Assembly (NCBI GenBank): GCA_028693815.1
Contig: JAQUUP010000021.1
Location: forward strand, 1 to 35,264
From: Candidatus Omnitrophota bacterium
GTDB taxonomy: Bacteria; Omnitrophota; Gorgyraeia; Zapsychrales; Aceulaceae
Reading direction: 5' to 3'
DNA length: 35,264 nucleotides
Made by a program: the position numbers and the translations under genes. Under the pieces are notes generated by a model, which was not told where the DNA came from, made no database searches, and saw only the letters and a list, made by a program, of their open reading frames with translations. Shown piece after piece: positions 6,161 to 26,274 of this stretch. Positions within the stretch are counted from its first letter, which is position 1. Every line of letters begins with the position of its first letter.

Positions 6161-7181
6161 GATCTTGTTCTCCTTTCAAAATTTTCATCTCAACTTCTAG
6201 AATAAACACATCCAATTCTCTTAAAAATAAATACAACAACTCTTTTAACCGAGCAGCATCTTTCTGTGTTGTTATTATTGTTTTAATATTGTGAGCTCGA
6301 CAATAATGAACAATGCGCTCAATATCATCTTTAGAATACTTATGGTGATCCATAAAAATAAAATGTTTCTTAATCGCTATTTTCAAAGACTTTGCGCTTT
6401 CCTCAAATGAGCGAGGATCACCAATACCTGAAAAAAGACATACCGAATTACCCGCCAAATCAAACAAATTTCTTTTGTCTCCATAATTATTAATATTGAC
6501 TAACGACACGGGGCTATGAATTGTCTCGACAATAGCCGCTGTAGGCTGAAATTGCTTTATTTTCTGATAGATCGTCTTGAGATTCTCTTTTCCCAAATCT
6601 GTTTTTGTTAAAACAAAAATATCGGCTCGCTTTAATGAATCCATTGGCTCACGCAAAATTCCTCTTGGAATTAAAAAGAAATTTCCAAACGGACGCGTTG
6701 CGTCAATAGCGACAATATTAAAATTCCTAAAAAGTCGCCAATGCTGAAATCCATCATCCAAAATAAAAACATCAGTTGTATTCGTTTCTAAAAAATTTTG
6801 AGCCACCTGATATCGATTCGCTCCAACCAAAACAGGAACATCTTTAAGCTGAGTTTTAAGCATCTCAGCTTCATCGGAAACCATGCCCTTGGCCATATAG
6901 CCTCGAGTTAATATCGCGGACTTAAGACCATGCCTTTGAAACATCTTCGCAATCAACCGAACCAAAGGTGTTTTTCCAACGCCACCAAGAGTAATGTTGC
7001 CAACGCTAATAACAGACTTTGGTAATCGCTTCGTTTTTAGAACTCCTGAACGATACATCCACAAAATTATTTTAATTCCCATCCAATAAAAAAAAGACAA
7101 AATCACTAAAATAATCTTGATTCCAAAAGACAGATAATCTTTACGCTGATCTGTCATTAATTCATAGAGATATTTCTTCAT
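6126..7181 (-). CDS. lpxK: Tetraacyldisaccharide 4'-kinase LpxK
   Basis: LpxK phosphorylates the 4' position of the lipid A disaccharide at the cytoplasmic face of the inner membrane, giving lipid IVA. The 351-residue length is normal. A hydrophobic N-terminal segment (about residues 20-42) would anchor it. The P-loop SVGNITLGGVGKTP lies at residues 59-72 and the Walker B-like LDDGFQHWRL at 141-150, with Asp142 and Asp143 in the usual place. LTRGYMAKGM and VSDEAEML are also typical. It starts by ATGA overlap with waaA and runs 35 bases into the acyltransferase gene, as expected for a lipid A operon. Confidence 0.95.
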   Translation of the reverse strand: MKKYLYELMTDQRKDYLSFGIKIILVILSFFYWMGIKIILWMYRSGVLKTKRLPKSVISVGNITLGGVGKTPLVRLIAKMFQRHGLKSAILTRGYMAKGMVSDEAEMLKTQLKDVPVLVGANRYQVAQNFLETNTTDVFILDDGFQHWRLFRNFNIVAIDATRPFGNFFLIPRGILREPMDSLKRADIFVLTKTDLGKENLKTIYQKIKQFQPTAAIVETIHSPVSLVNINNYGDKRNLFDLAGNSVCLFSGIGDPRSFEESAKSLKIAIKKHFIFMDHHKYSKDDIERIVHYCRAHNIKTIITTQKDAARLKELLYLFLRELDVFILEVEMKILKGEQDLEKRIFYFLDH

Positions 7182-13531: not shown

Positions 13532-16500
13532 TTACTTTAAAAAACTTAGCCTTTTCGGCTCCTCAGCATATTCCCTGGACATCTCAGTTTCATAAAAGTT
13601 GTTCTCATTAGCCATTCCAAGAAGCCATGGAAGATCAGTAATAATTACAAAATTAATTATCATCGGCACTAGCCCATCAATGTCAATATGCCCAACATCC
13701 TGAAACTTCACCGGCAAAGGTATTCCATCTTTATCCCGCTTAATCTGCATATCGAAATTGATACGATTAAAGTCTATACCACCAGTTGGTACAACTGCTG
13801 AAGAGGCCTCTCCTTTTTTTTCTTTCAAGGGAAACAATTTCTCTGTATTATTAGCTAGATCGCTAATCACACCATAAATCGACTCATTAACATAAAAAGG
13901 AACACCGGCTTTTTTGGCTGCTGTTGCTAAAATGAGAATTGGGCGTCTTAACTGATAGTCAACATCGTGTTTCGTGATGTCGACCCCATTGATATTATCT
14001 TCTTCAAGAGCCATTAAATCCGAAACAAGGCGAAGTGGATCTGCGATGTCAAGATAGGAAATATTCAGATTCGGATCAAGGATTTCCTTGATTTCATATA
14101 AGTTAGCAGGAACCTCAACGGAAACAGCAAGTGGGACGCCAAGCTCTATTTCGCCTAATAATTCTCTTACCTTTTTGATCTCCTCGAAGCTTCGGACAGC
14201 TTTTAACTCAAGAACAATGTTATCATTGTCTTCTTCGATGAGTTCTTTGATGATCTCCAGGTCAACCTTAAAAAATTTCCTGTTATCGTTTAAAGATTTA
14301 ACAAGCCCGTGCACTCCATAGCCAGGATTTGCTTCTTTTGGCTCATAAACTTCCCCATATTTTAGTTTTTGGTACTCTGAAGAGAAGATATTGTCGGTCG
14401 AGATAAAAAGTTTCTTTCCTTGCTTTTTAGCTTCATAGGCTGCTTCCCTAACAGCTTCTTTTAATTTTGCCCGATAAAAAAGCAAGCCAATCCCTTCCTT
14501 GTCGATGCTGAGGCTATATCCGTTTTCACGAAGCATATTACGGATATCCTGATACATAGACCGATAGATATGCCAATCTGCTCCGGCAAGCATCTTCCCT
14601 TCTTTCACGGTAGGCAAAATTTCTTTATCATAAGATTCAAAAGCCTTAAAATGCATACCCAGGGTCAATAAAAATTCTCCGATATTAAAATGATTAGGAC
14701 TTTCTTTTTTAATGGATTGAATCGCCTTCGGATCCATGTCAAAATCGAAACCGACAGCGTCTTTGGCCACTTGAGGTATTTCAAAATTCGTATTGGCTAA
14801 ATTTTTAGCGACTCTCTCGTATACCTCAAGCAAAACTGAAACCGCATCATAACCAAACGCCTTCAAGATAGCGCCATAATCATCTTGACCCGGAACCGAA
14901 GGATCATTACCGCAATAACTCACGGAATATTTTTTGTTATATTTTTTATTAAAATCTCTTACGATTTTAGCAATACGCGCGTTCCATCTAAGGACAGAAG
15001 GACTATAGGCATTAACCGTATCTTTTAATGCTTTATTATCGGTGTTCCTATCGATCCTGGCATTTGTCTGAAGAGCATCATTGCCCCCTGTTGAGAAAAA
15101 GAAATTAAGCTTTTTTCCTGTTTCATCTTCAAAATTTTTGGCAGCCATCAAGAAATCCTCAACGTTAATTGAATTCGTCGGGATTTCTGTCATGATGCCG
15201 ACCTTAATGTCTTCGGTTAACATGCCAAGTTCGTCCATCACCTCAAGCATCCTGGTTACATCCTCTGGCCGCCTGACAATAGGCGCAAAAACACCGATCT
15301 TTACTTTTTTAGTGTCTAAGACTTTTTTGATAGCTCCTAGCTGCCAACGCAAAACCTGCGGATTATGAAACATCAGATCAAGTCCTCGAAATCCTTTCAT
15401 GGGGTTCACTTCCCTTTTGATAAACCTTTCCGCGGAATAGACGCCCTCGTACTCATCGGTCTTTCTGTCATCTAGGCGGATATAATGCCTTTTATCCAGA
15501 AGCATCACAATCTGCGACAAAATCTCGGCATCTGAGTCTGCCTCGATCTTGCCACCTACTTTTTTGATCAATGTTTTTAATATTCCTTCTAATTGGTGAA
15601 GAGGGGCAACGCGACCAAGTCCATCGCGATAATACTGCTTTACAATATTTAAAACTTTAATCCGAAGCTGATAGTCAGCAAGGCTCTGCGCACGAACTAA
15701 AACATTGTTTTCTGAAGGGATCGTTGATACTGCTTTTGATAAGAGGGATTCGTATAGGGTTGAAACATAAAAATCCTCTGCCGAATTATAACCCTTAATA
15801 GCTTCTTCTACATATTTGATTTCATCCTTATCTTTTTCCCTGTCCAAGATCGGACCTTCATGCGACATGTGATTCTCACGTCTAATCATATTGTCATAGG
15901 CTAAAAGGAGATCCGGATATATTCCTATGCTATTTGTGAGCGTTAATTCCTGGCGGTCAAGCCCAATCCCGTAAAAAGACGGCATATTCCGTAGCGGCGC
16001 CCCCTTGTAGGCCTTATCAGTAGTGGCCGCAAAAACACCTAAACGGATATCGCCGTAAGGCGTAGAAGGAAGACCTTTGATACTAAAATCTTTTCCTGCA
16101 ACTTTAAGCTCATGATCCATCCCTAGTAATATTTTTCCCCGATTCGCATCAATGGTGATTTCAGTTCCATTCGGCAAAGCATCGCGCACGTCTTCAAATG
16201 TCGCATTTGTTATGCCCGTAACCGCAACGAGCCCAAACTCCGAAGCAACAATCATAGTGTGGGAATTTGGCCCACCTTTTTGTGCGATAATACCACGGGC
16301 CGCTTGCATAGCAGAATTCATATCAGGATCGCTTTGATATGCTGCCATAATTTTGTTGATAGTTCGGGCCAAAGTTTCCGGATTTTTATCTAAAACCCAA
16401 TAAATCTCCCCTTGTGCGGCTCCACCTGTTTTGGCAAGAAAATTAAACGGTAAAACCCGTCCTTCCTTTTGCGCTTTTTCAAATGCCTTATCAGTTACAA

Positions 16501-19500
16501 TAATATCTTTTAAAAATACTACATCGGGATCCCTTGAAGACCACACGGTTTCAGGCCTAGCCTGGGTGCTCACGATGGTCCAATCCTTTCGTGGAAATCC
16601 ACGCTCATCTTTTAGCGATTCTTGGTTTTCCCCTAATAATATAATATCATTGCCTTTGTTGTCCTTTTTGACGCGAAAAGCTCCTTCTAAATCAACAAAT
16701 CCACCATAAAAATCATGTAAGACCTTAAAATAAAATGCTGTCTTTTCAGCCAAGACAAAATCTGTTATGACAAATTCAGATTTTAAATTATCAGGGATAT
16801 CAATTTCTTGTTTTCCTAAACCACCTGCTGTTTCAACGACCATCTTCTCGCGTTTTCCTTTTGCGCGCAATAAAAGAGTCCCGTCATACTCCATGAAAAA
16901 TTTGCTTCCCGTCTCGTCTCCTGAAACAAGCTTTTCACCCTGGCCTTCTGTAGCGGAAAGCGACATGACAGGAAAACCGGTTTCTCGATCGAGAGAAAAT
17001 CCAATAAAACTAATTTGCGATAGAAACATCTCCTGCAAAAGCGTGCTGATTTCCGCATGTTCATCAAATGTAGGCAAGCCATGCTCAAAGCGGTAATCAA
17101 TCGCGCGTTTATTAAATAACGAGGCCTGATTGAATATCCAATTTTGAATGATAAAATCCAATCCGTCTTCCCCTTCTTTTTCGGAAAAAGGCGTTACAAA
17201 AATATATGTATCTTGACGGCCTGCAAAGGACGCAGTCTCGCTATCCTCTCCAACGGCAGAAGAACGAATGGCTAAAACAAGTTTTTCCAAAGGAATCCCA
17301 AGACGCTCGGCTAATTTCACTAGTCCTCGTTTCATTTCGTCCTTAACGGCTTCTGGGACAGTCATAAGCCTTGCGGCAATAAGCAATTTCTCAGATATCT
17401 CGGAGGTCACATGTTCATATTCAAGCTGTAGCTCTTGTAGCTGATCATCTAATGCAGCCTTGCCTTTTATCAAATCACTGCGTTGAGATGTTTTTATCTG
17501 CGCATCAAGCGCGTTTATTTTTAATTTTAATTGCTCCTGTGCTTCCTTAATCCGATTGACTTCTTGGTCTAAAGACTTACCATTCTTCTGAAAATATGCA
17601 TTTAAATTTTCATATCCATTTTCTGTAAAATCATCGACTATAGAAATCATAGTCTTTAAAGTTTTTCGGATTTGGTACTGCGCAGACGCATCTTCTTTAA
17701 AATCAATCGCAACGCCGCGAAGCGCCAATTCTTTTTCAAGCTTTTCTTTTTCTTCGTTTGTCATCCCTATTACATTTTTGTCGAGGAATTCACCATTCTT
17801 GTCCAAATAGTTATAAATTTCTTTTATTTTAGTCTCGATGTGCAAAAGATACGTCTTAATGTCCGTGATAAATAACCTCTGGAAGAGCTCCCCTGATGTG
17901 GCAAAATTAGGAAGCGTAACAACGTAAGGGCAAAACATCATTTCCCCGGTATGAGCGGTTTTACCCCCAAAATTAACTTCATCTTGGCGCTCTACCTCGA
18001 TATCCCATACGGTTGCACGTCCCTGAAAGGCCGGATCTTGAATATACTGCCTTTTTAAGCCATAAAGCGTTATTTTCTTTCCTTGCTCTACTCCGTCGGC
18101 TTCTTCATAAATTATTTTTGCATCCGGACTTAATTTATTTTTAAGATCTTCGATGGGATCCTCAATAAATATTTCAGATATTTCGACAATATCCGAATGT
18201 TCTTTGGAGAATTGCGCAAGGAGATCCGCTGCTTTTTCCTGACTAATTTTTCCATAAAAAAGATACTCTTCTTCAAGATATTTTGCAAGGCGGCGCTTGC
18301 CTAAAACTTTTCCACGATGAAGCATGTCTGACATAAAAAGAAAAATGTCCTTGTCACTCAGAAAAGAAGGATTTCTTGCCCCTTCGAGCGTATCATTGCG
18401 AATAACTTTTTTCTTCAATTGATAAAGTTCTTTTGTATCGTCTAACCTTGATCTTTTCTCTCCGGTCAAGCTTCTTTTGCTTGCCCCAACTAAAATCTCC
18501 AAGTCTTTTATGTCTATTCCTACTTTCTCTTTCCACGCTTCTGCAACAAGACCAGCTATAAAAGACATGGCAATTTTCTTTCGTCCTGTTTTAAAAAGAA
18601 AATCCATAAAATCTTCGTTCAAAACAATTCTTTTTGTTTTTAAATTAATATCTGCATATTCATTCTCTGTTGCACCAACAAAAAAATCTGTTTTTTCAAT
18701 ATAAGAGGAAATCTCGCGCAAAACCTTATACTCGTTCTTGTCTCCTCCATAATATGCAAGAAAATTCTTGGCAAGAGGATACAACTTGTCATATTTTCCA
18801 AAAAACAACTCTCCCTTCTTGACATTTTGGAAGCCAGGAATATTGGCTGATCTTGGAATCTCTTTGATTGAAGAACTCGCCACCTTAACGCTAGATTCTT
18901 CAGGTTTGACAAAAAGCACGCTAGAGCTAACGATCCCAGATTTTTCATGACCTCGAATATTTCTTATCGGAGGGATGCTAGTTCTATCAAGATTTTCTAT
19001 TACCAGTCTTGATCCACCTGAAAAATATTTACGAGGAATATTACGGCCAGCATTTGGGTCATATTCAGCCTTTATATAATTATAAGCACCTTTTTTGTAT
19101 GCCTCAAGATATTGATTGTAAATTTTCTCTTTGACGTCTGGATCGTTGATATTTAAGCCATTAATCTTTTTCTTGTCTACATAAATTTGGCCCAAAAGAC
19201 TTTCTTGAAGGCTTTTCTTAAACCAATTCGCTAAAATAAGAGAACTATAAATTTGGCGCAGCTGTGCAAAATGCTTGCCTTGATTGACTTCCTTAGTAAT
19301 TTCAGGAATAACAATTTCGCGAACAATCTCTGAAGCAAGATTAGCATTTCTAGAAACCGAGATTCCTCTATCCTTAAAATATTGAGCCTCTTTCTGCTTA
19401 TCGCTATGCTGCAGAGCAATGTAATCTTCTTCTATCATTACTTTCAAAGTACTTTCGGCAACAAACACGCGGTTTCCGGTCTCATAAACAACAGCTTTAT

Positions 19501-20068
19501 CAGGCAAAATCCAGACCTTGTTAAAAGTATCTAGAGGTATGTCCGTTGTGCCATATTGAGAGTATGCTTTTTTATAAACTTTATCCCAGAATTTCTTACC
19601 CAGCTCATCTTCAGGATAAACCAAAGAAGCTGTTATCTGCTTTAGGATATAATCCTCCGCTAATAGATCGCGCCCCATATCTGTTAAGCTAAATTCATCA
19701 GGAATAATTCTGTCTTTTTCATATGGAGAAAGATTAACCCAAAGCTCATCCTCTGGAATGGTCAAAGAAGTCAAGAAATACTTAACCATTTTTTCAGTCT
19801 CTTGCTTCAACTCCTCCCCTTGAATGTTTTCTTCGCCGGTATTAATAAAGAAATTGAATTCCAAAGGATTATCACAATTAATTTCAAGACCCTTGATGAT
19901 CGGGGGAGCAAATTGAGGCGTGAGGGTCAACATCGTACCAGGAGCAGGCAAAGCAAGCATCTGCGCAAAGCCTTGAGTCGGCAAAATCATGTTGCCGAGA
20001 AAGGCAATCGTGATTACAAGGCTAACAATCTTTAGTAAACGGGTATTCTTTGTTTTAAAACTTAGCAT
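13532..20068 (-). CDS. Giant exported protein P1 with PEP-synthase-like cargo
   Basis: 2178 residues. A Sec-type signal peptide (basic KTKNTRLLK, hydrophobic 12-29, likely cut after QGFA, residue 35) precedes a module (about 40-352) shared with P2, from LPAPGTM to IPRKYFSGG. An unassigned region follows to about 640. Then comes a phosphoenolpyruvate synthase/PPDK-like enzyme: GGKTAHTGEM; LAIRSSAVGED with Arg935, as in the ATP-grasp domain; TQARPETVWS; the phosphohistidine domain KGGPNSHTMIVAS with His1270; and a PEP-binding barrel with GFRG, TEIPT, GGNDALQT and YCGNDPS (Cys1719). A coiled coil of about 120 residues precedes Arg935. Residues 1960-2065 resemble a second, decayed barrel. The tail (2096-2178, GGIDF onward) matches that of P2. 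The start has a good AGGAG site. Family-level homology is clear; activity outside the cytoplasm, where ATP is scarce, is puzzling. Confidence 0.85.
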   Translation of the reverse strand: MLSFKTKNTRLLKIVSLVITIAFLGNMILPTQGFAQMLALPAPGTMLTLTPQFAPPIIKGLEINCDNPLEFNFFINTGEENIQGEELKQETEKMVKYFLTSLTIPEDELWVNLSPYEKDRIIPDEFSLTDMGRDLLAEDYILKQITASLVYPEDELGKKFWDKVYKKAYSQYGTTDIPLDTFNKVWILPDKAVVYETGNRVFVAESTLKVMIEEDYIALQHSDKQKEAQYFKDRGISVSRNANLASEIVREIVIPEITKEVNQGKHFAQLRQIYSSLILANWFKKSLQESLLGQIYVDKKKINGLNINDPDVKEKIYNQYLEAYKKGAYNYIKAEYDPNAGRNIPRKYFSGGSRLVIENLDRTSIPPIRNIRGHEKSGIVSSSVLFVKPEESSVKVASSSIKEIPRSANIPGFQNVKKGELFFGKYDKLYPLAKNFLAYYGGDKNEYKVLREISSYIEKTDFFVGATENEYADINLKTKRIVLNEDFMDFLFKTGRKKIAMSFIAGLVAEAWKEKVGIDIKDLEILVGASKRSLTGEKRSRLDDTKELYQLKKKVIRNDTLEGARNPSFLSDKDIFLFMSDMLHRGKVLGKRRLAKYLEEEYLFYGKISQEKAADLLAQFSKEHSDIVEISEIFIEDPIEDLKNKLSPDAKIIYEEADGVEQGKKITLYGLKRQYIQDPAFQGRATVWDIEVERQDEVNFGGKTAHTGEMMFCPYVVTLPNFATSGELFQRLFITDIKTYLLHIETKIKEIYNYLDKNGEFLDKNVIGMTNEEKEKLEKELALRGVAIDFKEDASAQYQIRKTLKTMISIVDDFTENGYENLNAYFQKNGKSLDQEVNRIKEAQEQLKLKINALDAQIKTSQRSDLIKGKAALDDQLQELQLEYEHVTSEISEKLLIAARLMTVPEAVKDEMKRGLVKLAERLGIPLEKLVLAIRSSAVGEDSETASFAGRQDTYIFVTPFSEKEGEDGLDFIIQNWIFNQASLFNKRAIDYRFEHGLPTFDEHAEISTLLQEMFLSQISFIGFSLDRETGFPVMSLSATEGQGEKLVSGDETGSKFFMEYDGTLLLRAKGKREKMVVETAGGLGKQEIDIPDNLKSEFVITDFVLAEKTAFYFKVLHDFYGGFVDLEGAFRVKKDNKGNDIILLGENQESLKDERGFPRKDWTIVSTQARPETVWSSRDPDVVFLKDIIVTDKAFEKAQKEGRVLPFNFLAKTGGAAQGEIYWVLDKNPETLARTINKIMAAYQSDPDMNSAMQAARGIIAQKGGPNSHTMIVASEFGLVAVTGITNATFEDVRDALPNGTEITIDANRGKILLGMDHELKVAGKDFSIKGLPSTPYGDIRLGVFAATTDKAYKGAPLRNMPSFYGIGLDRQELTLTNSIGIYPDLLLAYDNMIRRENHMSHEGPILDREKDKDEIKYVEEAIKGYNSAEDFYVSTLYESLLSKAVSTIPSENNVLVRAQSLADYQLRIKVLNIVKQYYRDGLGRVAPLHQLEGILKTLIKKVGGKIEADSDAEILSQIVMLLDKRHYIRLDDRKTDEYEGVYSAERFIKREVNPMKGFRGLDLMFHNPQVLRWQLGAIKKVLDTKKVKIGVFAPIVRRPEDVTRMLEVMDELGMLTEDIKVGIMTEIPTNSINVEDFLMAAKNFEDETGKKLNFFFSTGGNDALQTNARIDRNTDNKALKDTVNAYSPSVLRWNARIAKIVRDFNKKYNKKYSVSYCGNDPSVPGQDDYGAILKAFGYDAVSVLLEVYERVAKNLANTNFEIPQVAKDAVGFDFDMDPKAIQSIKKESPNHFNIGEFLLTLGMHFKAFESYDKEILPTVKEGKMLAGADWHIYRSMYQDIRNMLRENGYSLSIDKEGIGLLFYRAKLKEAVREAAYEAKKQGKKLFISTDNIFSSEYQKLKYGEVYEPKEANPGYGVHGLVKSLNDNRKFFKVDLEIIKELIEEDNDNIVLELKAVRSFEEIKKVRELLGEIELGVPLAVSVEVPANLYEIKEILDPNLNISYLDIADPLRLVSDLMALEEDNINGVDITKHDVDYQLRRPILILATAAKKAGVPFYVNESIYGVISDLANNTEKLFPLKEKKGEASSAVVPTGGIDFNRINFDMQIKRDKDGIPLPVKFQDVGHIDIDGLVPMIINFVIITDLPWLLGMANENNFYETEMSREYAEEPKRLSFLK

Positions 20069-20261
20069 GGGTATTTCTCCTTAATGACGCCGCCATTAAT
20101 TCAGGGACAAAGCGAATTAACTTTGCGCTTTTTATGAAGCTGAGATTAAATTAAAAATTTTTTTAGTTATTTTGATAATTTTTATTCTTTTTCAGATCTT
20201 TTCCAACAAGTAACCGTGGCGTGTTAATTTAAGAATTAAGATTTAAAAATCATATTTATTT

Positions 20262-20364
20262 GGAATACATACGATATGTGTTCCGGAAAACGCTTTCTTT
20301 TAAGAAAACGTGTATAAAATATAGCATATTTTGGAAAGAAATCAAGTTTCTAACCAAGAAACTT
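20262..20364. promoter_or_regulatory. Three consecutive dyads around the P1 promoter
   Basis: Three inverted repeats lie within 103 bases. The first is GGAATACATA/TATGTGTTCC around CGA (20262-20284, 9 of 10 paired). The second is CGCTTTCTT/AAGAAAACG around TT (20291-20310, 8 of 9). The third is a perfect AAGTTTCT/AGAAACTT around five bases (20344-20364), overlapping the candidate -35 box. They could be operators for a dimeric regulator or hairpins in the leader. Nothing in the window identifies the regulator. Confidence 0.4.
20318..20345 (-). promoter_or_regulatory. Candidate sigma-70 promoter of P1
   Basis: On the minus strand TTGATT (20345-20340) and TATATT (20323-20318) are 16 bases apart. 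The spacing and -10 box match the candidate P2 promoter. It would leave a 5' leader of about 240 bases. AT-rich surroundings make chance matches common. Confidence 0.4.
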
Positions 20365-20554
20365 AAATGTTTTAAAAGAAATTAGGCTCATAAAGTATTG
20401 ATTTTTAGTAATTTATGGCTCGGCTAAAAGAAATATCGATAAAATACAATTTTTTTGAGAAATATATCCAAGAATTTCATTTTAATCTAAGAAATAAGCC
20501 AGATGAATGCGTTATCAAAGGAAGGCAGGCGATTTATTAAAGAGTCTCAATCTT

Positions 20555-20634
20555 TTAATAAAGACCATGTCCCGATAGAATCTAATTGAGAATTGGATCT
20601 AAAAGAAAAGTGCAATTAGCGGCCCCGATCACCA
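20555..20634 (-). pseudogene. Decayed copy of the 3' end of the prepilin peptidase gene
   Basis: The plus-strand text AAAAGAAAAGTGCAATTAG (20601-20619), followed within two bases by GCCCCGATCAC, repeats the coding strand complement near 24656-24687, which encodes IGALIALFF of the prepilin peptidase. A second match, AATAAAGACC (20557-20566 against 24611-24620), covers the stop region, and the distance between the two matches is 44 bases here against 45 in the gene. The homology fades at about 20634, six bases before the P2 stop. It is not translatable as a peptidase. It points to duplication of the pilD region. Confidence 0.65.
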
Positions 20635-20639
20635 AAAAA

Positions 20640-23600
20640 CTAATCGCCATGCGCATCATCTAGCCTAGTTAAGCTCAAAATTTCGCCTTCCTTTCCCCCT
20701 CCCTCGCTAAGCCCCATAAGCATATTAAAACTCGTAATCGGGACAATATTAATAATAATAGGAACAAAACCCTCTGCTTGGCTTAGTGCCGTTATGTCGA
20801 TTTCAGAAATATCCAGCGCTATTCCCTTACCTCTAGATTCAATCTCAAACCCATCGGCGTCAAAATCAATACCACCAGGTGCCTGAATTGATGACGAACC
20901 TATCGAGTTTTCAACGTCCCTTTGATCACGATTCAGCCTGCTACCTTTTTTGCTTAAATCTAATACATACCGGTCTCCAAAAAAATGTCCAGCTAGCTCA
21001 AAACCCCACGCTTCCAATGCATTTCTTGTCTCTAAATCGTCTTGCTTTATAAGAACCTCGACTTGCCCATCATCGGCAAATAAGCTCTCTTCCGCACGAT
21101 GAACTAAATTTAGAAGATGCGCATAGGAATACCCAGAAAACTCATCAAGTCCTGCGAAGAAAATACTATCAAATAACTCCGGAACAATTTCCTTGTCTTT
21201 GGAAAAAGCAACAAAGGTAGCTTCAGCCAAATTTCCCCGGAATACCGTTACCTTGGTTTCACGACTTGAATCAATGGCCGTTCGCAAATTAAGTGGATTG
21301 ACATCATTAGCCAAAACAAAAACATTCTTGCTGTCTGCATTGTAAAACCTATCAACATAACCCTTTGTAATCTCTCCGGAGCCGGACCCGAGGTGCAGAA
21401 CTAAACGAACGCCTGGATCATGTTCTTTGTATATTTTTAAGAAATTTGCCAATGGAAATTCTTCCATAGGATAACCTTTTTGGAGAAGTAAGTTTTCCCA
21501 TCTACCGTCTGTATCCGCCCTGACATAACTATCTTTACTTGCTTTAAAAACAGCGCCAAAAAAGAATGGGATATATAAATCTTTTCCATCCCATAATATT
21601 CTTTCAATATTGACATAGTATTTCCCAAGGACCTCTTTTTCCTGTACATTCAAAAATTTAGATATATCCTCTTTTCCTCTAAACAATGCACCTGACTTTG
21701 GATTTTTTTCAAAAATTTTTTCATACAAATCTCCAATGATGTCATATAGTTTGCGTCTTTCGGCAATATCCAAAAACTGAAATAATTTTACAAAATGCCC
21801 AGGGGAATCAATATTCGGAATAAAAGCCGGAAACGGGATTTTCTCTAAACTCTTACGCGCTTCTTCTGCCTTTTTAATCTTTGCACGAGCCCGCAATATC
21901 TTCTTAAACAAAGCTATCTCCGTATCAGAAAGTTTTGGCGAGTCTAGCATTAGCTCATGTTGAAAAGATTCGTCGGGCAGATTCGAATCCGTCATCCTCC
22001 CCCATTCCTCTGAAGTAGCATTTATCCTAACAATTTCTCTAAAATCACCGTACGCTAAATCAATGAAAAATCTTGCGTTTCTAAAATCTCCTAACCTATA
22101 ACTTAATTCGGCTATCTCTCGATGGATGTTCGCAATCTTTGGATGACCAGAAATTGCTCGGTCAGTTTTTTCTATCGCCTCGCTGAGAGCTTCCTCGATC
22201 TTTTTTCTATCAGACTCGGATACTTTCTCAAAAGTAAAAAGCGAGCTCATCTGCTCATCCGTCATATGGAACTTTTTGGTCGTTGGAGCAAGCCCGAAAC
22301 TTTCATTGATTATATGGCCTACATGCTCTGTATATTCTTGATTTTCTTCCGGGCCAAAAATTTTATCCTGAAGGCCATAACGAAATGCCCTTGGGTATTG
22401 AAGACGTATAGTCTTTCCATCGCCACGCAAATAACGATGAATGCTGCCCCACTCTTTCTTTTGAAGGGCTTTCTTAAGGAGCTTACGATTTTCCTCTAAA
22501 CGTAAAAATCCTTCTCCTGCCTCATGAAAAACTCCTATAGCTGTCACAACTTCTTTATTTAAGAAAATTCGATGACCAATAGGATCAAAAACACCTTTAA
22601 ACCCGTGAATGTTATCATCTAAGAAGTAAATATCAAGGTCTTTGAGTAGCTCAACAATGCCTTCAGCTATTTTAATATCGTTTTTTCTTAATTTATTTGA
22701 TACAAGGCTCGTCCCAACTCGCCCCATAGTAATTTTGCCCTTACTCTTTTTTCGCATGTTAATTTTTAATTTAATCTCATTAATCAAACTCCCTTTCTTA
22801 GAGTCATCGAGCTTCTCCCCTGAAAATGTTAAGCTACCAACTCTTTCTCCCATTTTATCATAGACATGCTTCCCATCTTCTGTGCCCAAGAAAATTTCGT
22901 TTGTGTCGTTATAGACTTGCATGCTCAAATTCGTCCGCCCAACCTCAGAACCGTCTAACCAAAAGAAATTGTTGTACGCAGATCCTATTAATCCTGTCTC
23001 AGCATCAATCCTATCGCCTTCCTTCTTTAAAAGATTGGAAGAAACAAATTGTTCAACTTCAGATTGAATGAACGAAAAACGATCTTTGCCTGCTAATAAA
23101 GCAAGATTATTTCCTTGGTCGCCGCTTAAAGTAGTGCCTGCTACATAATCAGAATTCTTAAGCATCATATTAAATCCACCAGAAAAATATTTTCGTGGGA
23201 TATTCTGCTGAGTATTTTTATCATATTCAATCTTGATTATATCGCAGGCGCCTTTTTTAAAGGCAGCAAGATACTGATCGTAGATTTTCTGTGTGATCTC
23301 TTTATCCTCAACATCTATGCCTCTAACCTTTCCTTTATCTGCATAGACTTTATTAAGAATCGCATCTTTCAGATTATTCTTAAACCAATACGCTAAAATT
23401 AAAGAAGAATAAATCTGACGCAAAGGTGCAAAATGTTTACCCTCGTTGACTTCACGCTCAAGCTCCGGAATAATGATTTCACGAACAATTTCGTTTGTCA
23501 GCTGTGCGCTATAACCTGCAAAATTAACACTCTGAGGGCTTACAGTTTGTGATTTACGGCTTTCTTGCGTAGCAAGATAATCCTCTTCCAGCATCACTTT

Positions 23601-24233
23601 TAATTTACTCTCTACCACAAGTGCACGATCACCGTTTTCGTAAACAGCAGCCTTTTGTGGCACAATCCATACCTTATTAAAAGTCCCTACTGGAATATCA
23701 GTTGTGCCGTACTGTTGATAAGCTTTTTTGTAAACCTTATCCCAAAACTTTTTACCAAGCTCGTCTTCCGGTGAAATCAATGAAGCCGTGATTTGTTTTA
23801 AAAGATAATCCTGAGCAAGCATATCACGACCCATTTCAGTGAGGCCAAGCTTGCTAGGGATAATACGGTCTTTTTCGTAAGGCGAAAGATTAACCCAAAG
23901 GTCTTCATCCGAAATAGTTAAAGATGCCAAAAAGTATTTAATAAGCTTTTTACTCTCAGGCTTTAGGGTCTCACCTTTAAGCCCCGTATCTCCAGAATCT
24001 AAAATAAAATCAAATTTTAAGGGGTTGTTGGGATAGATTTTGATACCGCGTAACATGGCGGGTGCAAAGCCTGGGCTTGAAGGAACCATTACGCCAGGAT
24101 TTGGCAAGCCCAGCAACCCCGTATTTGCAAAGGCAGATGGTGGGAATACAGTTGTCCCCATGAAAACCATGAGGACAAAGAAAACCCCTACCTTAAAAAA
24201 TGTAGTCTTTTTTGTAATTTTGTGATTTAGCAT
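20640..24233 (-). CDS. Giant exported protein P2 with methyltransferase-like cargo
   Basis: 1197 residues from the ATG at 24233, which has GGGTG upstream; an in-frame ATG at 24248 and a longer frame to 24281 are possible. The signal peptide (KITKKTTFFK, hydrophobic core, PPSAFA then N, cut after residue 36) is followed by the module shared with P1 (43 to about 350; LPNPGVM, LWVNLSPYEKDRIIP, NIPRKYFSGG). The middle is unassigned. It includes HRIFLNKEVVTAIGVFHEAG, which resembles but does not complete a zinc-protease HEXXH, and a helical stretch. Near residues 945-1060 there is a class I methyltransferase-like fold: LVLHLGSGSGE (948-954 for the glycine motif), VLANDVNPLN as the acidic strand, and DSIFFAGLDEFSG. 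The tail from GGIDF (1120-1197) matches P1. The substrate is unknown. Confidence 0.82.
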   Translation of the reverse strand: MLNHKITKKTTFFKVGVFFVLMVFMGTTVFPPSAFANTGLLGLPNPGVMVPSSPGFAPAMLRGIKIYPNNPLKFDFILDSGDTGLKGETLKPESKKLIKYFLASLTISDEDLWVNLSPYEKDRIIPSKLGLTEMGRDMLAQDYLLKQITASLISPEDELGKKFWDKVYKKAYQQYGTTDIPVGTFNKVWIVPQKAAVYENGDRALVVESKLKVMLEEDYLATQESRKSQTVSPQSVNFAGYSAQLTNEIVREIIIPELEREVNEGKHFAPLRQIYSSLILAYWFKNNLKDAILNKVYADKGKVRGIDVEDKEITQKIYDQYLAAFKKGACDIIKIEYDKNTQQNIPRKYFSGGFNMMLKNSDYVAGTTLSGDQGNNLALLAGKDRFSFIQSEVEQFVSSNLLKKEGDRIDAETGLIGSAYNNFFWLDGSEVGRTNLSMQVYNDTNEIFLGTEDGKHVYDKMGERVGSLTFSGEKLDDSKKGSLINEIKLKINMRKKSKGKITMGRVGTSLVSNKLRKNDIKIAEGIVELLKDLDIYFLDDNIHGFKGVFDPIGHRIFLNKEVVTAIGVFHEAGEGFLRLEENRKLLKKALQKKEWGSIHRYLRGDGKTIRLQYPRAFRYGLQDKIFGPEENQEYTEHVGHIINESFGLAPTTKKFHMTDEQMSSLFTFEKVSESDRKKIEEALSEAIEKTDRAISGHPKIANIHREIAELSYRLGDFRNARFFIDLAYGDFREIVRINATSEEWGRMTDSNLPDESFQHELMLDSPKLSDTEIALFKKILRARAKIKKAEEARKSLEKIPFPAFIPNIDSPGHFVKLFQFLDIAERRKLYDIIGDLYEKIFEKNPKSGALFRGKEDISKFLNVQEKEVLGKYYVNIERILWDGKDLYIPFFFGAVFKASKDSYVRADTDGRWENLLLQKGYPMEEFPLANFLKIYKEHDPGVRLVLHLGSGSGEITKGYVDRFYNADSKNVFVLANDVNPLNLRTAIDSSRETKVTVFRGNLAEATFVAFSKDKEIVPELFDSIFFAGLDEFSGYSYAHLLNLVHRAEESLFADDGQVEVLIKQDDLETRNALEAWGFELAGHFFGDRYVLDLSKKGSRLNRDQRDVENSIGSSSIQAPGGIDFDADGFEIESRGKGIALDISEIDITALSQAEGFVPIIINIVPITSFNMLMGLSEGGGKEGEILSLTRLDDAHGD

Positions 24234-24292
24234 ACTTGCACCCAACATACTAACATATCTATTAATATCATGTTGTATCAAAATCTTCTATA

Positions 24293-24608: not shown

Positions 24609-25409
24609 CTAATAAAGACCGTAACCGCTCATAATCCATGCAAGAAGCGGTTCTGAAAAGAAAAGTGCAATTAGAGCCCCGATCACAAGAAATGGACCGT
24701 AAGGAATAAGGCTCTCTTTAGTTCTAATTTTCTCAATAATACCAAAAACCGCACCAAAAAACGGAGCGATAAGAAATCCTAAAAGTGCAAGCTTCCATCC
24801 TAAAAATGCGCCAATCATAGCCATGAGCTTAACATCGCCACCACCCATGGATTCTTTTTTAAAAAGAAAATCGCCAATGATACCCATCAAATAAATCGAA
24901 CCGCCACCAATCAAAACCCCTAAGACTGATCGCCATAAAGACAAAAGATGCGAATCCGCGTGATGCAGCTGTGGAATCGCAAGGCTAAAAATAAGACCAA
25001 CAACCATTCCTCCAACACTAATCTCATCAGGAATAATCCTCTCATCAATATCAGTAAATGTTGCAACAATAAAACCTGACACCATAACTAGATAAGGCCA
25101 TAAAATCGGCTGAAAACCAAAGTATCGATAAAGCCCTAAAAATGAAAGAGCTGTCAAAAGCTCAATTAGAAAATAGCGAAAAGAAAACTTTTCGCCGCAA
25201 AATCGACATTTTCCTCGCAACATAACATAACTTAAAAGTGGGATATTGTTGTACCAAGGAATCATTTTATTACATTTCAAACAGTGAGACCCTGGAGTCA
25301 CAATAGATTCTTCTTTGGCCATACGAATAATGCAGACATTTAAAAAACTACCAATAATAGAACCAAATACAAAAAATACAATCGAAATAAAGTTTTGTTC
25401 TAATATCAT
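24609..25409 (-). CDS. pilD: Prepilin peptidase (A24 family)
   Basis: A membrane aspartic protease that cleaves type IV prepilin leader peptides and usually methylates the new N-terminus. In 266 residues it shows the N-terminal GSFLNVCIIRM segment, two CxxC pairs (Cys43/Cys46 and Cys68/Cys71) of the methylase part, and both catalytic aspartates: Asp120 in FTDIDERIIPDE, and Asp192 in the GGGD of MGGGDVKLMAMIGAFLGWK. Several hydrophobic helices fit the family topology. I chose the ATG at 25409: it has AAGGAG nine bases upstream and lies just behind the aroE stop, whereas an ATG at 25436 would overlap aroE. No pilin or pilus assembly gene is in the window. A decayed copy of its 3' end lies behind P2. 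Confidence 0.93.
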   Translation of the reverse strand: MILEQNFISIVFFVFGSIIGSFLNVCIIRMAKEESIVTPGSHCLKCNKMIPWYNNIPLLSYVMLRGKCRFCGEKFSFRYFLIELLTALSFLGLYRYFGFQPILWPYLVMVSGFIVATFTDIDERIIPDEISVGGMVVGLIFSLAIPQLHHADSHLLSLWRSVLGVLIGGGSIYLMGIIGDFLFKKESMGGGDVKLMAMIGAFLGWKLALLGFLIAPFFGAVFGIIEKIRTKESLIPYGPFLVIGALIALFFSEPLLAWIMSGYGLY

Positions 25410-25410
25410 G

Positions 25411-26274
25411 TTATTTAACTCCTTGCTGAAGAGCATTTTTCATTTTGGATCGAACAACCTCCGGCAGATCAATTTCGGCCCAATGCTGAAAAGCCAAAAC
25501 GCCTTGATAAAAGAGCATGCCCAATCCGTTAGAAGTTTTTGCTCCTTTTTCTTTTGCCATCTTCAAAAACTTTGTTTGGTCAGGATTATAAATTAAATCG
25601 TACACCAGCATATCTGAATGCAATAAGTCTGGCTCAATAAGAACCTCATCTGAATCTTTTAATCCAATCGGCGTAGCATTAATCAAAAGATCCGACAGCT
25701 CAATATTAAGATCATCAATACTCTGGCACACCTCTACCTTTTCGCAGTTTAAATTTTGCGAAAGATCAGAAACAAGCATTTTTGCCTTATCATAATCAAC
25801 ATCATAAATTTTAATCCACTGAGGAGCCTGTTCAATCATACAAAATACTGAAAGAATCGCTCGGGCTGCTCCCCCTGCCCCTAAAATTGAAATACGTTTT
25901 GATTGCGGATTAAAACCAAGCTCTGTTATGTGAGCCAAAAAACCTGGGCCATCCGTATTGTATCCAGTAAGCCTTCTATTTTTTCCAATGACAATTGTAT
26001 TAACAGCTTTGACTTTCTGCGCATAAGGATTGAGATTATCGAGATATGGGATAACTTTTTCTTTGTAAGGAACAGTGACATTTAGGCCAAAGATGGGGCT
26101 ATCTGGTTTTTTTAATTCTCCTAAAAAAACCGAAAACTCTTCTTCTTTAAGGGGAAACAACTGATATGTCGCATCTACTTCTAACGCATCAAACGCAGCG
26201 TTATGCATTAAGGGTGATAGGCTATGGCCTAAAGGATAGCCTACCAACCCATAAATAGATTTTTGCTCATTCAT
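25411..26274 (-). CDS. aroE: Shikimate dehydrogenase
   Basis: AroE reduces 3-dehydroshikimate to shikimate with NADPH, one step before shikimate kinase. The 287-residue protein shows GYPLGHSLSPLMHN (Ser18 and Ser20 bind the carboxylate), NVTVPYKEKV (catalytic Lys71) and GYNTDGPGF (Asp108). The nucleotide loop LGAGGAARA is at 131-139, and LINATPIGL and NGLGMLFYQG are near the end. It starts eight bases behind leuA and ends one base before the prepilin peptidase, so the three are probably cotranscribed. The ribosome binding site is poor. Confidence 0.95.
   Translation of the reverse strand: MNEQKSIYGLVGYPLGHSLSPLMHNAAFDALEVDATYQLFPLKEEEFSVFLGELKKPDSPIFGLNVTVPYKEKVIPYLDNLNPYAQKVKAVNTIVIGKNRRLTGYNTDGPGFLAHITELGFNPQSKRISILGAGGAARAILSVFCMIEQAPQWIKIYDVDYDKAKMLVSDLSQNLNCEKVEVCQSIDDLNIELSDLLINATPIGLKDSDEVLIEPDLLHSDMLVYDLIYNPDQTKFLKMAKEKGAKTSNGLGMLFYQGVLAFQHWAEIDLPEVVRSKMKNALQQGVK

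Follow-up and report, generated by a model that had tools for sequence, protein, structure and literature searches.

Polymorphic toxin systems combine a conserved, exported N-terminal part with a variable enzymatic part, and are found as many paralogues whose modules recombine. The TANFOR-domain proteins of Bacteroidetes are an example of such systems (PMC7073777). The proteins P1 and P2 described here, and the carrier family to which they belong, resemble polymorphic toxins in their exported conserved N-terminus, variable enzymatic part, paralogues and module recombination; however, in polymorphic toxins the toxin domain varies at the C-terminus, whereas the carrier family varies internally and has a fixed C-terminus, and the cargo that could be recognised consists mostly of metabolic or regulatory domains instead of known toxin domains. 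The cargo of type IX secretion is alike in having a signal peptide and a short conserved C-terminal element on many unrelated proteins, but the carrier family has in addition a large conserved N-terminal module (N-module), and its C-terminal GGID tail did not match the NCBIfam sorting-signal models (T9SS C-terminal sorting domain).

Giant, poorly conserved ORFs of more than 20 kb were reported in Omnitrophota (Seymour et al. 2023, PMC10066038), and, as far as the portion of that account considered here goes, the carrier family is similar to them in phylum, unusual size, scarce annotation and possibly in consisting of surface proteins. Nevertheless, the genes of the family span ca. 2–14 kb, with products of 627–4790 aa where both ends are present, therefore falling short of 20 kb, and have a defined conserved frame that does not appear in that portion of the account. 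We found no description of the N-module/GGID frame in the literature searched.

P1 and P2 share their two ends

The window, that is, the whole stretch of 35,264 nt that was analysed, contains the genes for P1 and P2, whose previously assigned coordinates were correct when the ORFs were re-checked. Their features are:

13532–20068, minus strand: P1, exported-type modular protein of 2178 aa (ORF with ATG start)
19965–20068, minus strand: P1 signal peptide, cut after GFA and before Q (hydrophobic core and AxA-type site, a pattern common to the family)
19013–19951, minus strand: P1 N-module, 313 aa (profile A1 at full length, 520 bits)
13802–19012, minus strand: P1 centre (cargo), 1737 aa, PEP-synthase-like (Pfam PF01326, PF00391 and PF02896; catalytic His and Cys aligned with 9dae)
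13604–13801, minus strand: P1 GGID tail, with GGIDF at 13769–13783 (profile A2, 83 bits)
20640–24233, minus strand: P2, exported-type modular protein, with its start taken at the ATG at 24233 (ORF; alignment of its N-terminus to that of P1)
24126–24233, minus strand: P2 signal peptide, cut after AFA and before N (signal-peptide scan)
23175–24107, minus strand: P2 N-module, 311 aa (profile A1 at full length, 519 bits)
20895–23174, minus strand: P2 centre (cargo), 760 aa, no recognised family (0 Pfam, NCBIfam or PDB matches)
20700–20894, minus strand: P2 GGID tail, with GGIDF at 20862–20876 (profile A2, 67 bits)

The ORF of P2 opens with a TTG at 24281, and the ATG used here is situated further in. 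The N-termini of P1 and P2 are identical at 203 of 365 positions (56 %; BLASTP, 432 bits, E 6e-131), in agreement with the closely similar N-terminal module, preceded by signal peptides ending in FA, that the sequence-only reading had described. That reading had also proposed a common tail. A pairwise BLASTP of the two tails gave a weak match (22.7 bits, E 0.40), so that the pair by itself is no proof of tail homology, but both tails scored well above this value with profile A2, which was built from 57 sequences including those of P1 and P2 and retrieved the same tail in many genomes; the common tail is thus upheld by the profile. P1 and P2 each contain a Sec-type signal peptide, an N-module and a GGID tail in one protein, the combination by which we define the carrier family.

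The neighbouring genes (positions 7178–30134) are of the housekeeping type, including KDO transferase-like, XerC/D, topA, dprA, shikimate kinase, aroE, leuA, ilvC and pfkA genes, and there are no obvious dedicated export genes among them. Positions 24609–25436 had no match in NCBIfam.

The centres of P1 and P2

The centre of P1 contains the Pfam domains PPDK_N, PEP-utilizers and PEP-utilizers_C, and, with the alignment to the solved PEP synthase 9dae, these show that the domains for ATP binding, the mobile His and PEP binding follow one another as in that enzyme; the mobile-domain His (GGPNSHTMIV) and the C-terminal Cys (SYCGNDPS) also align. The previous assignment of a PEP-synthase-like enzyme to this centre is therefore well founded. 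P1 coincides with PEP synthase (TIGR01418/PRK06464) in domain order and catalytic residues but differs from it in being located inside an exported-type protein of 2178 aa and in scoring below the curated equivalog cut-offs of both models (277.6 vs 739.75 and 314.6 vs 598). Over 1708 residues, the P1 cargo has 58 % identity with that of locus L042, against 59 % for the N-modules, and a full-length copy was found in just one further genome among the 54 of the order. Judging from these identities, P1 is an exception in the family, its own cargo not being fast-evolving.

The centre of P2 did not produce any match to Pfam, NCBIfam or PDB, and the only visible hint of function is a motif-I-like VLHLGSGSGEIT. 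The methyltransferase-like domain previously proposed here, and a SAM-dependent methyltransferase in particular, is thus unsupported. Compared to its counterpart from the same genus, the P2 cargo is 29 % identical over 769 aa and the N-module 74 % identical.

Size and distribution of the family

The observation of shared ends is confirmed, and extends to a family far larger than P1 and P2. The genome containing the window (assembly of 1.9 Mb in 52 contigs, 96.5 % complete) holds ca. 24 N-module/GGID ORFs, a count that includes a few pieces of split genes, which together take up 130 kb (6.8 % of the assembly), and related genomes contain from 13 to 77 family genes each. Profile searches for N-modules and tails gave, respectively, 25 and 20 in genome G000, 14 and 15 in G176, 13 and 12 in G045, 77 and 58 in G114, and 60 and 58 in G121. 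The N-module was present in 89 of the 285 genomes of a phylum sample; those listed all belonged to the same class as the window, and G107 and G206 were the sole genomes of the sampled order without it. All 46 loci retrieved from the GTDB collection were from Omnitrophota or, going by the record title, Candidatus Elulimicrobium, and the closest N-modules were those of Candidatus Aceula, which was described from Ace Lake in Antarctica (PMC8542988). It is fairly likely that the family consists of lineage-specific, exported carrier proteins.

The two ends occur together

The fetched loci provided 431 complete, unmasked ORFs with a length of 250 aa or more, of which 88 contained both ends, six only the N-module, four only the tail, and 333 neither (Fisher 8e-79); these loci were largely retrieved via the N-module, and an independent genome-wide search for the tail gave the same picture, all 47 genomes with the tail in the scan of 285 genomes also having the N-module. 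The ends were thus found together in 88 of the 94 complete N-module ORFs, the opposite of what was expected had they been joined only in P1 and P2. The four tail-only ORFs are directly downstream of a tail-less N-module ORF, which indicates that these are split genes. Nevertheless, the tail may be genuinely absent from a few members, as seems to be the case for a NUDIX protein of 681 aa (locus L083).

A simple scan, different from SignalP, detected a hydrophobic core in 113 of 114 N-termini, and an AxA-[QNDGE]-type site at most 12 aa from the module in 84 of them.

Structure and motif core of the ends

The N-module has ca. 313 residues and its predicted structure, of moderate confidence, is alpha/beta (pLDDT 68.5, pTM 0.64); it had no match in Foldseek searches against PDB and BFVD, nor did its sequence in Pfam, NCBIfam or PDB. 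The tail, of ca. 70 residues, was predicted as mostly coil, with no confident fold (pTM 0.31). Deeper relatives (loci L143–L145 in G073, and L146–L162 in G122, G051 and G102) keep the N-module and have other C-terminal ends. Proteins from G073, which also show a TM-like N-terminus, stop a few residues past GGID or AGID (GGIDLRNMRINLR), and in those from G122 and G102 a different end, helical in appearance, follows a GGID-like motif. The retention of GGID in distant members of the class despite their differing ends indicates that it is the conserved core, which is consistent with a recognition peptide.

Exchange of centres between conserved ends

The cargo ranges from 217 to 4327 residues (median 996), and cargo segments are mutually ca. 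14 % identical, which corresponds to background. Two paralogues from the window's own genome, L089_57 and L091_20, show 86.8 % DNA identity exactly across the N-module (560–1597 and 542–1579, respectively), and no similarity was detectable between their cargo. Likewise, L083 and L084 are 85 % identical across the upstream region and the N-module, and the match in the cargo is limited to 38 residues at the junction. In proteins whose cargo differed, DNA identity between the tails was as high as 91–96 %. Between genomes, the N-module was 89 % and the cargo 29 % identical with a counterpart from the same genus (L088), and 78 % and 38 %, respectively, with a counterpart in another genome (L041). 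These results support the previous proposal of a changeable centre between fixed ends, since unrelated centres are flanked by near-identical DNA in paralogues. Among paralogues, the ends are conserved or homogenised, and the centres are replaced or diverge quickly.

Distances among N-modules and among tails were correlated in three genomes (Mantel r 0.61–0.69, p ≤ 0.0015), which may be explained by shared ancestry alone or by compatibility of the two ends. Contigs C2 and C42 of G000, and many in G114, start within N-modules, as expected for near-identical repeats.

Nature of the cargo

Recognised cargo in the window's own genome includes PEP synthase-like, NUDIX, response regulator, methyltransferase, histidine phosphatase, cytidylyltransferase, HMGL-like, FHA and NHL domains, some of these matches being below the curated cut-off, and many centres were not recognised. 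In relatives, we found phosphoglycerate kinase (PGK), triosephosphate isomerase (TIM), GAPDH N-domain, LpxC, DnaJ, starch synthase, GNAT and HAD, among others. An ordinary PGK of ca. 400 aa, next to a TIM of ca. 258 aa, is present in almost all genomes of the order; the framed copies of PGK and TIM are therefore extra. These framed enzymes keep most of the catalytic motifs, with losses in some, such as the PGK of L181, in which the arginine of SHLGRP and the aspartate of GGGD are missing. The best match of the PGK cargo in an N-module/GGID protein from L182 (2244–3431) was the archaeal PGK 2cun (204 bits), which we take to be the structure from Pyrococcus, and that of the PGK cargo from L184 was a bacterial PGK. 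These best matches suggest that PGK cargo probably has at least two origins.

Possible roles of the family

In the reading that we favour and consider probable, the family is a lineage-specific, Sec-dependent export and docking frame with exchangeable cargo. Sec would carry the protein over the inner membrane, and the N-module and GGID tail would jointly dock it to, or sort it into, a single envelope, surface or secretion route, with both ends possibly serving a common pathway, as the sequence-only reading had proposed. The centre would be the functional payload, and new members would originate when captured or duplicated genes are placed into the frame. Most recognised payloads are cytosolic-type enzymes and regulatory domains, which would fit work at the envelope or inside another cell, be it a partner, a host or prey; the carrier proteins are plausibly displayed on the envelope or directed to a host or prey. 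Export of the family is predicted, and its destination, partner and function are inferred. However, ATP-dependent enzymes are not expected to be functional in the periplasm, and the deeper families of the class combine the N-module with other tails. We identified no secretion machinery, receptor, transporter or processing enzyme tied to the family, and searches for an ATP/ADP translocase and for the T9SS protein SprA (SprA_N) gave 0 matches in the 54 genomes of the order, the control genomes being equally silent.

The cytosolic type, diversity and fast evolution of the cargo, with mostly intact active sites, together with the probable two or more origins of PGK, would also suit host- or prey-directed effectors, with the frame taking enzymes into another cell where PGK, TIM, PEP synthase, methyltransferase and NUDIX activities make sense. 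Host-dependent or predatory lifestyles were inferred for Omnitrophota in published work (PMC10066038), and this picture makes such a role plausible, if unproven. Nevertheless, neither injection machinery nor a partner was found, and the species has no known host, so we deem effectors unlikely, though far from negligible. It is rather doubtful that the N-module and a GGID C-terminal signal are read by a lineage-specific secretion route for large enzyme-bearing proteins, among them captured glycolytic and gluconeogenic enzymes, of bacterial and archaeal origin, that rewire host or prey metabolism. The great length of the proteins, the strict frame at both ends, the correlated N and tail types and the numerous centres without a recognisable domain could alternatively indicate an envelope scaffold or coat, in which enzyme folds are reused as building blocks between assembly ends and perhaps form head-to-tail polymers through the N-module and the tail; the catalytic residues are largely retained in P1, PGK and TIM cargo, which is unexpected for a pure scaffold and makes this option unlikely.

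An uncleaved N-terminal anchor, holding the proteins at the cell's own inner membrane and facing the cytoplasm, where the centres would take part in ordinary metabolism, agrees with the ATP-using enzymes among the cargo and with the TM-like N-terminus of the deep relatives from G073; yet most members have AxA-type cleavage sites right before the module, and separate housekeeping PGK and TIM are present, which make it quite improbable. Finally, plain expansion of a gene family by duplication and relaxed selection, the common ends reflecting common ancestry only, is compatible with all members being paralogues with alignable ends, but it is a very poor explanation of unrelated centres lying between ends with 85–96 % DNA identity, the breakpoints falling on the module edges, and of the lack of detectable homology between the centres of paralogues with near-identical ends.

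The export and docking frame that we favour consists of two domains, matched by neither Pfam nor NCBIfam, that delimit as many as 77 proteins in one genome and ca. 7 % of the window's own genome. Its profiles allow the annotation of many unexplained large proteins and, with the GGID motif, are handles for finding the transporter or the partner in a phylum with a debated lifestyle; the frame also opens a test of whether enzymes of the cytosolic type have a use outside the cell that produces them.

Split genes, artefacts and unusual cargo

In L095 (1–6621, contig C42 of G000), an N-module ORF is followed by an in-frame tail ORF past one stop codon, which could represent a split gene or readthrough. 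Two other candidates were discarded: a glycogen synthase of 918 aa with a tail (L054) was joined through masked N, and an ORF of 24,583 aa with a tail in G195, considered as a link to the giant ORFs, was an artefact of masked N stretches. A TIM with conserved catalytic motifs is situated inside an N-module/GGID protein from L123 (4380–9380). By eye, the cargo of a tail protein in L141 (1–4602, from G195) resembles an ADP-ribosyltransferase in one stretch and a 2H-phosphoesterase in the next. Additionally, one of the centres from the A3 set (L033–L099) matches the Pfam intein splicing domain (4e-21), corresponding to an intein within the cargo.
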